Positions 12,516 to 22,395 of a stretch of DNA of 34,623 nucleotides are shown here, in pieces. The stretch covers positions 1-34,623 of the forward strand of contig JAENYU010000034.1 in the NCBI GenBank assembly GCA_016841625.1. The letters are read 5' to 3'. Position 1 is the first letter of the stretch. Every line of letters begins with the position of its first letter. This DNA is from Methanobacteriota archaeon (lineage in GTDB: Archaea; Halobacteriota; Methanosarcinia; Methanosarcinales; Methanosarcinaceae). Under the pieces are notes generated by a model, which ran no database searches, was not told the origin of the DNA, and saw nothing but the letters and a program-made list of their open reading frames with translations. The translations under genes and the position numbers were made by a program.

Positions 12516-13313
12516 ATGCCAGAACCCGAAAAAGAGCCCGAAAAAGCCCAAAAAAATGAGCAAAAAAAAGAACCCCTCATCAAACCCGCCAGAACCCCCA
12601 TCAAAGAACACTTCCAGCTCAAGGAAACCATTGTAACAATCGCAGCTGACGAGCAATCCCACATCGAAGCTGCAAAAGAAGCTATCCGCTTCCACCGCTC
12701 AGCCCTTGAGACCTACATCTTCTCAGACCCTTTTTTCAAGCTCACCCTCGAACCCCATACCTGTCCCTCAAACGCCCCTGAAATCGTCCGGCGGATGGTA
12801 AGAGCCGGGAATACCATGGGAATCGGGCCCATGAGTGCGGTTGCAGGCACGGTATCGGCACTTGCCGTGGAAGCCATGGTCGAAGCCGGAGCCTCGTATG
12901 CGATAGTGGACAACGGAGGAGACATTGCGATGATCAATGACAGGCCTGTAGTGGTAGGGATTTATGCGGGGCAGTCCTCGGTCAGGAACCTGGGTTTCGT
13001 CTTCGAGCCGCGAGACTCGATCACCGGGGTCTGTACCTCAGCCGGGACGGTGGGACCTTCAATCAGCTTTGGAATGGCAGATGCAGCTGTTGTTTTTTCC
13101 GATGACGTATCCCTGGCGGACTCGGCTGCAACGGCGCTCGGGAATGCCGTGGACGTGGGAAAAGAAGCTGTGGAGAAGGCTTTTGACGTGGTGAAAGGAA
13201 TTTCCGGAATCAAGGGGGCGGTTGTTGTCCAGGGGGAGTACATCGGCATGTGGGAAAAGGTGCCGAAAATCATGCGGGCGGATGTCCGGTACGAGTGCAT
13301 CACCAAGGCGTGA
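12516..13313 (+). CDS. UPF0280 family protein (ApbE-like fold)
   Basis: 265 residues. The core from about residue 35 ([14 protein letters not shown]) through [34 protein letters not shown] and [18 protein letters not shown] is typical of the UPF0280 family, which is widespread in methanogens and related in fold to ApbE flavin transferases. The biochemical role is not established. The first 30 residues are rich in Glu, Lys and Pro and look like a low-complexity extension. No ribosome site precedes ATG 12516, and the region before it is IS debris, so the true start may be further in. No membrane segment is seen. Confidence 0.85.
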
Positions 13314-13479: not shown

Positions 13480-13595
13480 GTTCAAGAGCTCATTCAAGGG
13501 CTCATTCAAGGGCTCATTCAAGGGCTCATTCAAGGGCTCATTCAAGAGCTCATTCAAGGGCTCATTCAAGAGCTCATTCAAAAACTCGTTCAGGA
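13480..13595 (+). repeat. 12-bp tandem array before the oxidoreductase
   Basis: Nine full units of the type ATTCAAGGGCTC / ATTCAAGAGCTC plus a partial tenth. Because the unit is 12 bases, a frame through it stays open and would encode repeated ELIQ/GLIQ; the frame from TTG 13405 ends at TAA 13597-13599, 17 bases before the oxidoreductase start. I see no independent evidence that it is translated. Confidence 0.9.
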
Positions 13596-13616: not shown

Positions 13617-15440
13617 ATGTTGGGTGGTTATGTAGGAAAAATTCTGGATGTTGACCTCGAGAACGGAACGCTTAAAGACCTGCCTCTTGATGAAGAGATG
13701 GCAAAGATGTACCTGGGAGGAAAGGGGCTTGGCCTGAAGCTCGTATACGACGAGTTCAGGGCGGACATGCAGCCTTTTGACCCTGACAACCTGCTGGTTT
13801 TTGCAACCGGACCTGCCACAGGAGCGAAGATTCCGACCAGTGGACGCCACCATGTCGTCTGCAGCAAATCCCCGCAGACCGGGACCGTCGGGAGTGGAAA
13901 CTCAGGCGGGAAATGGGGAGTCTACCTGAAGTTTGCTGGCTACGACGTGGTCATAGTCAGGGGGATTTCGAAGGAGCCGGTCTACCTGGAAATTGTTGAT
14001 GGGAAAGCCAGGCTTGTGAAAGCCCCGGAACTCTGGGGCATGACGGTCCATGCGGTCACGGATGAGCTGACCGAAAGGACCGGGAACCCTAAGAAAACCT
14101 CCGTTGCCTGCATCGGGCCAGGGGGGGAAAACCTGGTCCCCTTTGCCGGCATCATGAACGACAAGTACAGAACCGCAGGCAGGACGGGGCTTGGGGCTGT
14201 CATGGGGAGCAAGAAGTTGAAGGCGATTGTGGTTTCCGGGAGTCAGAAGGTTGAGCCTGCAAACCCTGAACTTTTGAAGGAGAGAGTCGAGGATTCCAGG
14301 GCAAAAATCAAGGAAAACCCGGTTACGAGCCCCGACGGAGGGCTTCACACCTACGGGACCGCAATCCTTGTGAATATCATCAACGAAAGCGGGGCCTACC
14401 CTACCCGAAACTTCCAGGAAGCTTACTTCCCCGAAGCCGACGAGCAGAGCGGGGAGACCCTTGTCAAAAAATACCTGACAGGCCGTGGGGGCTGCTGGGG
14501 CTGCTCGATTATCTGCGGGAGGAGGTCCGATGTGCCTGAAGGTCCCTACAGCGTCCGGGATACCGAAGGCCCGGAGTACGAGACCATTTTTGCCTTTGGT
14601 TCCGACTGCGGAGTAAAGGAGCTCGACGCCCTGGTAAAGGCCAACCACCTCTGCGACGAGCTGGGACTTGACACCATCTCCATGGGAGGCACGATTGCCT
14701 GTGCCATGGAACTCGTGGAGAAAGGAAAAATCCCGGCAGAAAAACTGCACGGCATGAACCTGCGCTTCGGAGACCCCGGCTCAATGATCGAAGCCATCTG
14801 GAGGACCGCCTATCGCGCCGGGATCGGGGCTGACCTTGCCCTCGGCTCAAGAGCACTTTCAGAAAAATACGGGGCTCCGGAATTCTCCATGGCTGTCAAG
14901 GGCATGGAACTGCCCGCCTATGACCCCCGGTCCATCCAGGGGATAGGCCTGAACTACGCGACCGCAAACCGGGGAGGGGATCACGTTTATGGCTACATGA
15001 TCTCCCCCGAGGTCCTGGGGCTGCCCTTAAAACTCGATCCCTACGCCACCGAGGACAAACCCAAATGGACCATCATCCTTCAGGACCTTACCTCGGCAAT
15101 CAATTCGTCGGTTGTCTGCCTCTTTTCCTCGTTTGCCCTGGGCCTTCCCGAGTACGCGGGGATGCTGGCAGCAACCACGGGCTTTGACCTTGACGCCGAC
15201 AAACTCCTGAAACTCGGGGAAAGGGTCACAAACCTGGAACGGCTGATGAACAACATGTACGGGCTTGACCGGAATGAAGATATCCTTCCAAAGCGCCTTA
15301 CTGAAGAGCCGATCCCCGAAGGTCCTTCAAAAGGCCAGATTTCCCAGGTCCCGGAAATGATCAATGAGTACTACGCACTCCGGGGCTGGGTTGACGGAAA
15401 GCCCACGGAAGAGAAGTTGAAGGAACTCGGGATTGCCTGA
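13617..15440 (+). CDS. Tungsten-type aldehyde ferredoxin oxidoreductase
   Basis: 607 residues, the normal length for the AOR family. It would oxidise aldehydes to carboxylic acids with a bis-pterin tungsten (or molybdenum) cofactor and one [4Fe-4S] cluster, passing electrons to ferredoxin in the cytoplasm. The cluster ligands are visible as C293-x2-C296-x3-C300 (GCWGCSIICG) and C501 (SSVVCLF), spaced as in the Pyrococcus enzyme. N-terminal GGYVGKILDVDL and GGKGLGLKLVYDE segments and GRHHVVCSKSP are characteristic pterin-domain sequences. The ATG at 13617 follows a GGAGG site at 13606-13610. A MoaD-like carrier and a cysteine hydrolase follow on the same strand. The aldehyde substrate cannot be told from sequence. 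Confidence 0.9.
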   Translation: MLGGYVGKILDVDLENGTLKDLPLDEEMAKMYLGGKGLGLKLVYDEFRADMQPFDPDNLLVFATGPATGAKIPTSGRHHVVCSKSPQTGTVGSGNSGGKWGVYLKFAGYDVVIVRGISKEPVYLEIVDGKARLVKAPELWGMTVHAVTDELTERTGNPKKTSVACIGPGGENLVPFAGIMNDKYRTAGRTGLGAVMGSKKLKAIVVSGSQKVEPANPELLKERVEDSRAKIKENPVTSPDGGLHTYGTAILVNIINESGAYPTRNFQEAYFPEADEQSGETLVKKYLTGRGGCWGCSIICGRRSDVPEGPYSVRDTEGPEYETIFAFGSDCGVKELDALVKANHLCDELGLDTISMGGTIACAMELVEKGKIPAEKLHGMNLRFGDPGSMIEAIWRTAYRAGIGADLALGSRALSEKYGAPEFSMAVKGMELPAYDPRSIQGIGLNYATANRGGDHVYGYMISPEVLGLPLKLDPYATEDKPKWTIILQDLTSAINSSVVCLFSSFALGLPEYAGMLAATTGFDLDADKLLKLGERVTNLERLMNNMYGLDRNEDILPKRLTEEPIPEGPSKGQISQVPEMINEYYALRGWVDGKPTEEKLKELGIA

Positions 15441-15513
15441 AAAGAACAACTGAAAAGGCTCTCAATTAGAGCTTCAGGCAACCTTTTACCCTTTCTCACT
15501 TTATATTTCCTGC

Positions 15514-15558
15514 TTCAAATTCCCGATTCAAATTCCCGATTCAAATTCCCGATTCAAG
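15514..15558 (+). repeat. 13-bp tandem repeat
   Basis: Three units of TTCAAATTCCCGA and a partial fourth, in the spacer before the MoaD-like gene. A weak stem-loop (GCTCT/AGAGC near 15459-15473) lies upstream of it. Confidence 0.8.
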
Positions 15559-15577: not shown

Positions 15578-15862
15578 TTGAAAGTACTTGTAAAATTCCT
15601 TGCCTCTATCCGGCATGTCACAGAAGAACCAGAAATTCTGTTTAAAATCCATCCCAGAGAGACCGTTGAAGTGCTGCTCAGAGCCCTAAAACATCATTAC
15701 GGAGAAGGATTCAGGGAAGCTGTGGGCAGGCCTTTCGAGGACGAAAGCCCGAAAATCAGGTTCCTGGTGAACGGAAGGGATATCGACTTCCTTAAAGGCT
15801 CCGAAACCGAACTGGAAGACGGGGACGTTGTGGTACTGTTTCCGCCGATTGCTGGCGGATAA
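15578..15862 (+). CDS. MoaD-like sulfur carrier protein
   Basis: 94 residues with a ubiquitin-like fold pattern, ending in the required Gly-Gly (FPPIAGG). MoaD proteins carry sulfur as a C-terminal thiocarboxylate for building the dithiolene of molybdopterin or tungstopterin. Its position 137 bases after the AOR gene suggests it serves that enzyme's cofactor. The start is TTG at 15578 with GGAAGG about eight bases upstream. No MoaE or MoeB gene is present in the window. Confidence 0.88.
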   Translation: MKVLVKFLASIRHVTEEPEILFKIHPRETVEVLLRALKHHYGEGFREAVGRPFEDESPKIRFLVNGRDIDFLKGSETELEDGDVVVLFPPIAGG

Positions 15863-15938
15863 TACTAAAGTATATTCATGAAGTGTGTTCCTGAAGTAAG
15901 TACCCAAAATAAGTCCCGAAACTAAAAAGGGTGAAAGC

Positions 15939-16520
15939 TTGAAAGCACTGGTTATCATAGACATGACTAATGACTTTGTGTTTGAGAAATACAAACATGA
16001 AGGCGAAGAGTATGAGGGGCAGCTCGCAGCTCCGCTGGGGAAAACAATCATTGACCCGATAGTTGAACTTGTGGAAAAGGTTCTGAGCAGGGGAAATGCC
16101 GCGGTGCTCAGGCTTCCGAAAGACCATTACAACGCCTTTACAAACCCGGCGCTTGAACTGGAGCTTTCGGAACTGGGCATTAACGAGGTGTTCATGACAG
16201 GCCTGGTCGACGAGGTCTGTATCTACCACAACGCTCTCAGCTTTCTTGAGAGGGGCTTTCGGACGAATATAGTAAAGGGCTGCACCGTCCCCTTTGATGA
16301 AGCGAAAGGTAGAGAATCCCTGGGAGAACTCAAAGCCTGCGGGGCAAGGATGGTAGACGACATACCTGATGACGTGAAACTGATCATGCGGCTCGAAGAC
16401 GAGCACGACGAAAACTCAGAAGAGATAAAATCCGGGGACTGGCCGCCCCATAACATGAAAGGTACCCCCGGTGCCCTTACGGTTAAGAAAATCAGGGACG
16501 CCCTTGAAAAAGGAAAATAA
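15939..16520 (+). CDS. Isochorismatase/nicotinamidase-like cysteine hydrolase with relocated metal-binding segment
   Basis: 193 residues, TTG start at 15939 with GGGTGAAAG upstream. The expected catalytic triad is visible: D8 in VIIDMTNDF, K61 in RLPKDHYNAF and C94 in GLVDEVCIYHNAL. In nicotinamidases and relatives, a DxH...WPPHC..GTPGA segment that binds the metal lies between the Asp and the Lys. Here that segment is absent from its place and a matching one occurs at the C-terminus: D154-x-H156 (EDEHDENSEE), then H171 in DWPPHNMKGTPGA. The fold therefore seems rearranged, as in a segment swap or circular permutation. It follows the AOR and MoaD genes at a 76-base gap, suggesting a role in aldehyde or cofactor metabolism, but the substrate is unknown. 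Confidence 0.8.
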   Translation: MKALVIIDMTNDFVFEKYKHEGEEYEGQLAAPLGKTIIDPIVELVEKVLSRGNAAVLRLPKDHYNAFTNPALELELSELGINEVFMTGLVDEVCIYHNALSFLERGFRTNIVKGCTVPFDEAKGRESLGELKACGARMVDDIPDDVKLIMRLEDEHDENSEEIKSGDWPPHNMKGTPGALTVKKIRDALEKGK

Positions 16521-16573: not shown

Positions 16574-16742
16574 GTTCAATTGCGTAACCTTTTAGGTCAA
16601 TTGCGTAACCTTTTAGGTTAATTGCGTAACCTTTTAGTTCAATTGCATGACCTTTTAGGTTAATTGCATAACCTTTTAGTTCAATTGAACAACCTTTTAG
16701 TTCAATTGAACAACCTTTTAGTTCAATTGCGTAACCTTTTTA
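16574..16742. repeat. 21-bp tandem array at a convergent gene junction
   Basis: Eight units of roughly TTCAATTGCGTAACCTTTTAG (21-22 bases) with small variants, some reading AATTGAAC so that a GTTCAATTGAAC palindrome forms. The last unit runs into the stop codon of the MscS gene (16740-16742). Confidence 0.92.
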
Positions 16743-21222: not shown

Positions 21223-22395
21223 ATGAAAAGGGGGAACGTGTACCGGATCTATCCGGATGATGAACAAAAGACGCTTATCGAAAAGCATATCGGTTGCGTT
21301 AGATTCATCTATAACCGTTTCCTCCACATCAAAAAGGTTTTCTACGACAAATTCAGGATCAACATTTCCCTGAGTCAACTTGACAAGTACCTTCCCATGT
21401 TCAAGGAAATCTATCCCTGGCTCAAAGAGGTCAATTCACAGTCTCTTCAGGAAGCCAGAAAAAACCTGCACGATGCCTACACCCGGTTTTTCAGAGGTCA
21501 AAACGGCTTTCCTCAACGGAAAACGAAGAAGGACAATAACAAGTCTTTCCAGATCCCGCAGAGGTACAGGCTCAACCTGACCACTTCGCAGGTGTTTCTT
21601 CCGGGAATCGGCTGGATGAAAATTAAGATGCACAGGGACCTGTTCAGTCCGGAGTTTTTCGAGAACCTGATAGAGACTACCGAAGTTAACGGGGAAGTCA
21701 TTGTCGAAAAGGACATTAATGCCGAATTTTTGAGAACGGCAACCGTGAAAAGGACCCCTACAGGAAAGTACTACATTTCCATCCTGACAGAAGACAGGGA
21801 AAAGTACCCGGAAATACAGGAATACTCAGAGGATAGCACAGTCGGGGTTGACCTCGGGATCAAGGACTTTGCGATCCTTTCAACCGGGGAGAAGATAGAG
21901 AACCCTAAGTTCCTGAAAAAGTCTTTGAAACGCCTGAAAACTCTCCAGAGGAGGGTCAGCAGGAAACAGAAAGGGTCCAGTAACCGAAGAAAAGCCGTAA
22001 AACAGCTTGCTAAACTTCATGAGAAAATCTCCAACCAGAGACACGATTTCCAGCATAAAGAGTCAAACACTCTTTTGAGCGACAACCAAGCCGTTGGAAT
22101 CGAGACGCTAAACATTAAGGGGATGAAGAAAAACCATAAACTTGCTCAGGCTATCAGTGATTCGGCATGGGGAAGCTTTGTTTCGAAACTGGAATATAAG
22201 GCTAAAAGGCTCGGCAAAACCGTTATTAGGATCGGGATGTGGGAGCCTTCCACAAAAACCTGTAACGTTTGCGGATACCACAACAAGGACATAACTCTGG
22301 CTGTCCGGGAGTGGGAATGCCCTGCCTGTGGAACGTTCCATGACAGGGACATTAACGCCGCTATCAACATCAAAAAGTTTGCACTGGCAACTTGA
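21223..22395 (+). CDS. tnpB: TnpB RNA-guided nuclease (IS605 group)
   Basis: 390 residues, full length for compact archaeal TnpB. The RuvC residues are all present: D210 in GVDLGIKDF, E294 in GIETLNIKG and D376 in HDRDINAA. The zinc ribbon has C347, C350, C366 and C369. Near the N-terminus YRIYPDDEQ and CVRFIYNRFL match the usual TnpB start. TnpB cuts DNA guided by an RNA from the element's right end and helps the element persist. The start ATG 21223 has GTAATGTT before it but no clear ribosome site. The next gene begins 176 bases after its stop, so the element may also affect its expression. Confidence 0.93.
   Translation: MKRGNVYRIYPDDEQKTLIEKHIGCVRFIYNRFLHIKKVFYDKFRINISLSQLDKYLPMFKEIYPWLKEVNSQSLQEARKNLHDAYTRFFRGQNGFPQRKTKKDNNKSFQIPQRYRLNLTTSQVFLPGIGWMKIKMHRDLFSPEFFENLIETTEVNGEVIVEKDINAEFLRTATVKRTPTGKYYISILTEDREKYPEIQEYSEDSTVGVDLGIKDFAILSTGEKIENPKFLKKSLKRLKTLQRRVSRKQKGSSNRRKAVKQLAKLHEKISNQRHDFQHKESNTLLSDNQAVGIETLNIKGMKKNHKLAQAISDSAWGSFVSKLEYKAKRLGKTVIRIGMWEPSTKTCNVCGYHNKDITLAVREWECPACGTFHDRDINAAINIKKFALAT

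Follow-up and report, generated by a model that had tools for sequence, protein, structure and literature searches.

The window, which is the whole stretch of 34,623 nucleotides analyzed here, encodes a nicotinamidase-like cysteine hydrolase whose segments follow each other in the order A-C-B instead of A-B-C: the module made of beta2, the metal loop and alpha2 (DxH...WPPH..GTPGA) comes after the last core strand. Judged from the sequences, this rearrangement is a non-cyclic segment permutation of a nicotinamidase-type enzyme, and it is real and lineage-specific. About 30 full-length orthologues share the A-C-B order, all of them in two genera of the Methanosarcinaceae. We are fairly confident that the protein is a metal-dependent nicotinamidase-type cysteine hydrolase that was rearranged once, from A-B-C to A-C-B, in the ancestor of Methanosarcina and the window's genus.

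The ORF translation has D8, K61 and C94 where an earlier note on this DNA had placed them, in the order of the family. It also bears out the remark that the metal segment is gone from between D8 and K61 and stands after C94, in the form of D154-E155-H156 and, at residues 167-179, DWPPHNMKGTPGA. The same note had offered a segment swap or a circular permutation as the simplest reading. The swap is strongly supported by the reinsertion test described below, whereas a circular permutation was rejected because it would need the order B-C-A or C-A-B, and A-C-B is no rotation of A-B-C.

The gene and its product

The gene, its parts and its upstream neighbors are listed in Table 1. The TTG start and a GGTGA-like site were found again in nearly all orthologues. 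The residues D8, K61, C94, D154, H156, W168 and H171 are invariant across the permuted family, and the first three are kept in at least 90% of the permuted and normal-order members taken together. Y64, which corresponds to the KxHY tyrosine in the Streptococcus pneumoniae nicotinamidase (SpNic), varies among orthologues (Y, F, L, P, V or A), and the residues before the cysteine are [DE]-E in the permuted family versus the usual T-[DN]; hence, the substrate may differ. The register of the fourth metal ligand in the permuted family is uncertain. Between beta1 and alpha1 lies a hairpin (residues 15-30; positions 15981-16028) that is variable and longer than in most normal-order relatives, with strands predicted at residues 17-20 and 23-26.

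Table 1. Coordinates in the window of the hydrolase gene, its segments and key codons, and neighboring genes
Feature	Position	Strand	Remarks
Permuted nicotinamidase-like cysteine hydrolase gene	15939..16520	+	193 aa, TTG start
Ribosome-binding site GGGTGA	15929..15934	+	4 bases 5' of the TTG start
Segment A, residues 1-54	15939..16100	+	beta1 with catalytic D8, variable hairpin 15-30, alpha1
Catalytic D8 codon	15960-15962	+	segment A, beta1
Segment C, residues 55-141	16101..16361	+	beta3 with K61, KxHYxAF, beta4, C94, beta5, beta6
Catalytic K61 codon	16119-16121	+	segment C, beta3
Nucleophile C94 codon	16218-16220	+	segment C
Residues 142-148, linker reaching into the beginning of the moved strand	16362..16382	+	
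Segment B, residues 149-193	16383..16517	+	moved beta2 - metal loop - alpha2 module; WPPHNMKGTPGA
D154 codon	16398-16400	+	segment B, metal-motif residue
H156 codon	16404-16406	+	segment B, metal-motif residue
H171 codon	16449-16451	+	segment B, metal-motif residue
Aldehyde ferredoxin oxidoreductase (AOR)	13617..15440	+	neighbor, no constant partner
Archaeal MoaD/SAMP1-type ubiquitin-like carrier	15578..15862	+	neighbor, no constant partner
PRK04334 (UPF0280), weak ApbE similarity	12516..13313	+	adjoins the hydrolase where AOR-MoaD is absent, in some genomes

Evidence that the segment moved

We built an HMM of the normal order from 14 of the 36 relatives described below and scored the window protein with its tail moved to every position. 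The one-domain score rose from 51.8 bits in the order found to 113.6 bits when the tail (from residue 149) was placed after residue 54, the top score among all placements tried. Shuffled tails inserted at residue 54 gave a mean of 69.5 and a maximum of 88.0 bits (500 trials), and reinsertion gained 56-64 bits in each of the 16 orthologues tested. The Pfam model PF00857 matches the native order in two stretches, with 61.6 bits (above the cut-off of 27), and the restored order in a single stretch (2-171 of 175), with 78.5 bits. Similarly, the best PDB match has E = 3e-11 over residues 54-141 in the native order and E = 9e-16 over residues 2-176 once the order is restored, with the nicotinamidases of B. 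subtilis and streptococci on top. The tail alone (50 aa) had five matches at E<=10 among all PDB sequences; four of these are nicotinamidases or pyrazinamidases aligned at their internal metal module, and the first is the nicotinamidase of P. horikoshii (E = 0.093). The E-values of the tail alone are singly weak, yet all lines of evidence from sequence comparison agree.

The relatives of normal order complete this picture. With an HMM we read 36 relatives from genomes of the same phylum, which were retrieved by similarity to segment C and so were not chosen for their order. The internal metal segment stands between alpha1 and the catalytic lysine in all near-complete relatives, that is, in all but one (L081), whose match runs only from the catalytic lysine onward. 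None of the 36 has a metal segment after the cysteine and, conversely, no permuted member keeps an internal copy. Each of the three segments of the permuted protein has its homologue in these enzymes. This answers the refutation that the earlier note had envisaged, namely homologues with the normal internal segment and a tail that is an unrelated addition: relatives of normal order do exist, but it is with their internal segment that the tail shares homology. Fusion of the gene with an unrelated tail was rejected because the tail matches the missing segment.

Distribution and selection

The search of archaeal genomes for the same order that the earlier note had proposed brought up about 30 genomes. 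Exact peptide patterns, which detect close relatives only, were scanned against 84,980 species genomes. They matched 13 complete copies and 2 partial ones, every one from Methanosarcina or its close relatives, as well as one distant protein with the normal order. In a profile search of 393 genomes of the phylum, full-length matches were confined to two genera of the family. Within the family, the permuted gene is carried by all four genomes of the window's genus and by 26 Methanosarcina genomes, in one of which it is broken across contigs; several Methanosarcina genomes lack it. The viral contigs searched contained no relative, and the plasmids searched gave only partial matches of low identity. 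Bacteria may still have a more remote homologue of permuted order that the peptide-pattern scan would miss.

The moved module is the best-conserved part of the protein and is under the strongest purifying selection. The median dN/dS among 23 orthologues is 0.189 for segment A, 0.110 for segment C and 0.055 for the tail core (residues 149-185); synonymous sites are near saturation, which makes the absolute values rough and leaves the ranking clear.

Predicted structure and placement of the tail

With 16 close sequences, AlphaFold2 gave a weaker model (pLDDT 74.6, pTM 0.78). With 44 sequences, normal-order relatives included, the best model reached a pLDDT of 90.4 and a pTM of 0.88, and the mean pLDDT of all five models was 87-90; the fold prediction is confident for segments A and C. 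The best Foldseek matches of the predicted model are nicotinamidases. Against the pneumococcal enzyme (3o90) it has a TMq of 0.62 and an rmsd of 2.1 Å, and by the TM formula this TMq corresponds to at most about 139 aligned residues, close to the 141 residues of A and C. In the prediction these two segments superpose on 3o90; the placement of the tail is inferred. Beta3 with K61 is also assigned by homology (AVLRLPKDHYNAF versus RVFWMDKRHYSAF). In the DSSP line, the strand predicted at residues 146-154 has 9 residues and beta6 has 3. Since a beta6 of 3 residues cannot be its sole pairing partner, this strand probably lies on the side of beta1 and beta3, at the unoccupied beta2 slot.

Arranged in this way, the rearranged chain would still assemble the same kind of active site. 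Segment A would bring D8, segment C would bring K61 and the nucleophile C94, and segment B would bring beta2, the metal loop and the helix, with D154, H156 and H171. In the PncA of M. tuberculosis, the ends of beta1 and beta3 carry the aspartate and the lysine, respectively, and a helix has the cysteine at its N-terminal end (PMC3025910). In SpNic, zinc is bound by D53, H55, E64 and H71 and was proposed to orient the substrate and to activate water for the hydrolysis of the thioester (PMC6271260). Among these ligands, D, H and H are invariant in the permuted family. D8, K61 and C94 would make a thioester with an amide substrate, possibly nicotinamide or a close amide, and a metal held by the tail would, as in SpNic, put both the substrate and the hydrolytic water into place. 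A conventional active site despite the permutation is probable but unproven.

The tail strand would fill the vacant beta2 slot either in its own subunit or in a neighboring one. The linker from beta6 to the moved strand has only about 7 residues, and a rough estimate from sheet geometry puts the direct distance at 21-22 Å, so that insertion into the same subunit would be tight unless beta6 is displaced. With such a tight linker, there may be a domain swap instead: the tail would fail to reach the beta2 slot of its own chain and enter the neighboring subunit, making the enzyme an obligate oligomer with every active site formed by two chains. The C-terminal helices of the related YcaC touch the neighboring monomer (PMC4519933), and the catalytic and the metal residues are both invariant, as such a swap would have it. 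Still, the single-chain model is confident throughout, including the tail strand, which suggests packing within the same chain without proving it; the swap deserves to be taken seriously, even if we find it unlikely. A natural non-cyclic permutation within one catalytic domain combined with exchange of the metal strand between subunits, which would turn an otherwise self-contained active site into one shared by chains, is unlikely on the whole. The tail could also lie elsewhere, e.g., outside the sheet, with DxH...H acting as a structural or regulatory metal site and the core being metal-free like that of YcaC or biuret hydrolase. Many isochorismatase-family members work without a metal motif, and the pocket residue Y64 varies. 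However, the ligands, W168 and GTPGA that are kept are those of a catalytic metal module and belong to the most constrained part of the protein, and, with the tail elsewhere, the core, which superposes on a nicotinamidase, would be left without a strand in the beta2 slot. Such a location of the tail is, in our view, improbable.

For a catalytic module that moved within a nicotinamidase-type enzyme, which is the reading we prefer, the likely route would be a tandem duplication, after which the first copy lost B and the second lost A and C. An intermediate with two copies of the module (A-B-C-B) was not found among the distant homologues read.

Genomic neighborhood and possible function

The earlier note suggested that the hydrolase may be tied to the pathway of the AOR and MoaD genes that precede it in the window, and this link does not hold in general. 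We surveyed the 25 loci whose upstream sequence extends over 1.28 kb or more. In 8 of them, the window included, AOR-MoaD lies just upstream of the hydrolase, separated by 79-609 bp. AOR-MoaD is absent from the 6 kb upstream of the hydrolase in five genomes, and in loci without these genes the hydrolase is near a gene for MscS, CorA or PRK04334. The survey rejects an obligate partnership. The 8 loci could still suggest that the hydrolase acts in an AOR-MoaD pathway, and not in NAD salvage or general amide hydrolysis, but the absence of the genes from the other 17 loci and from the five longer upstream regions, together with the variable spacing, makes such a role improbable. In one genome (G001), the intact hydrolase copy stands apart and a degenerate copy with three stops (L009 1501-1764, contig 40) lies beside AOR-MoaD; the association seems to reflect an earlier location of the gene and not a pathway. 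This degenerate copy is also what could be held in favor of an assembly error, a frameshift or a pseudogene. Yet about 30 genomes, complete ones included, have this order in an open frame that is under purifying selection, and the chance of such an artifact is negligible; as for assembly or sequencing errors, the identical order in about 30 independent genomes rules them out.

Three short tandem arrays, at 16574-16740 (21 bp x 8), 13481-13581 (12 bp x 8.4) and 15507-15557 (13 bp x 3.4), sit in the gaps between the genes of the hydrolase block. A putative TnpB-like ORF of an IS200/IS605-type element is found at 21223-22395. In another genome (G002), a further MoaD-like gene is upstream of PRK04334 (L011 1513-1761).

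The likeliest role of the protein is that of a metal-dependent nicotinamidase-like amidase. It is a candidate for the nicotinamidase that feeds PncB, a tentative assignment to which we give somewhat less than an even chance. The window's genome has a PncB-type NAPRTase, which is consistent with nicotinamide hydrolysis. It also encodes two other proteins of PF00857, neither of which has the DxH metal motif, leaving the permuted protein as its only member with that motif; in three related genomes (G001, G308 and G191), the permuted protein is the sole PF00857 member found. In five genomes, no more than about 10-20 kb separate the NAPRTase gene from the hydrolase, which is a loose hint. Co-occurrence with NAPRTase was rejected as proof of a nicotinamidase, since most Methanosarcinaceae have this gene with or without the hydrolase, and it also occurs in genera that lack the hydrolase. 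We looked for a metal-type PF00857 replacement in genomes without the permuted gene and found none. Some Methanosarcina thus have neither, and the permuted gene is not essential. The variation of Y64 speaks against a nicotinamidase that feeds PncB, and so does the score with the NCBIfam nicotinamidase equivalog PRK11609, 25.9 bits against a cut-off of 174, although a shortfall is what one would expect of a permuted protein.

Relation to known systems

The normal-order archaeal homologues of the same phylum (L045-L057, L064-L083 and L025) share 24-37% identity after gapping and the same catalytic residues, but, where nearly complete, have their own segment between alpha1 and the lysine, where the window protein has it after the cysteine. 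The best matches in sequence and fold are the PncA of S. pneumoniae, S. mutans and B. subtilis (3o90, 3s2s and 5zn8). They share with the window protein the catalytic D, K and C, a KxHYxAF-like motif after beta3, and the DxH + PPHN.xGTxG module. In these enzymes, however, the metal module lies between alpha1 and beta3 and not after beta6; furthermore, they have T-D before the cysteine and the tyrosine of KxHY, whereas the permuted family has [DE]-E and a tyrosine position that varies. The pyrazinamidase/nicotinamidase of Pyrococcus horikoshii (1ilw/1im5) is archaeal and metal-dependent and is the top match to the isolated tail, with DxH...WPxH..TPGA, but unlike the window protein it has the normal order. 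The branch of YcaC, biuret hydrolase and CSHase has the same fold and D-K-C triad, and the window protein scores weakly against the NCBIfam models of that branch, far below cut-off. To our knowledge, this branch has no DxH metal motif of the kind found in the permuted protein.

We found no paper joining isochorismatase with circular permutation, and papers that pair nicotinamidase with permuted, or nicotinamidase or isochorismatase with Methanosarcina, look unrelated in the parts accessible to us. As far as sequence can tell, the permuted hydrolase seems to be one of the rare cases in which the segments of a functional catalytic domain were reordered in nature. It combines plain sequence homology, a bounded lineage, normal-order relatives, and catalytic parts on both sides of the break, and with this one small protein, questions on the order of folding, the assembly of the active site and the path of the rearrangement become testable. 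It also shows that annotation depending on motif order may get an enzyme wrong, given the two fragments seen by Pfam and the failure of the NCBIfam nicotinamidase model. The question of natural non-cyclic permutation of folded domains has been approached chiefly through engineered proteins and distant similarities of structure (PMC2096629). The earlier cases, the engineered Arc repressor and AML1/CBF versus riboflavin synthase, resemble the window protein in that their rearrangement goes beyond circular permutation (PMC2096629). They differ from it in that the former was engineered and the latter is a remote structural similarity over 42 residues, whereas here the homology is clear and lies within one enzyme family.
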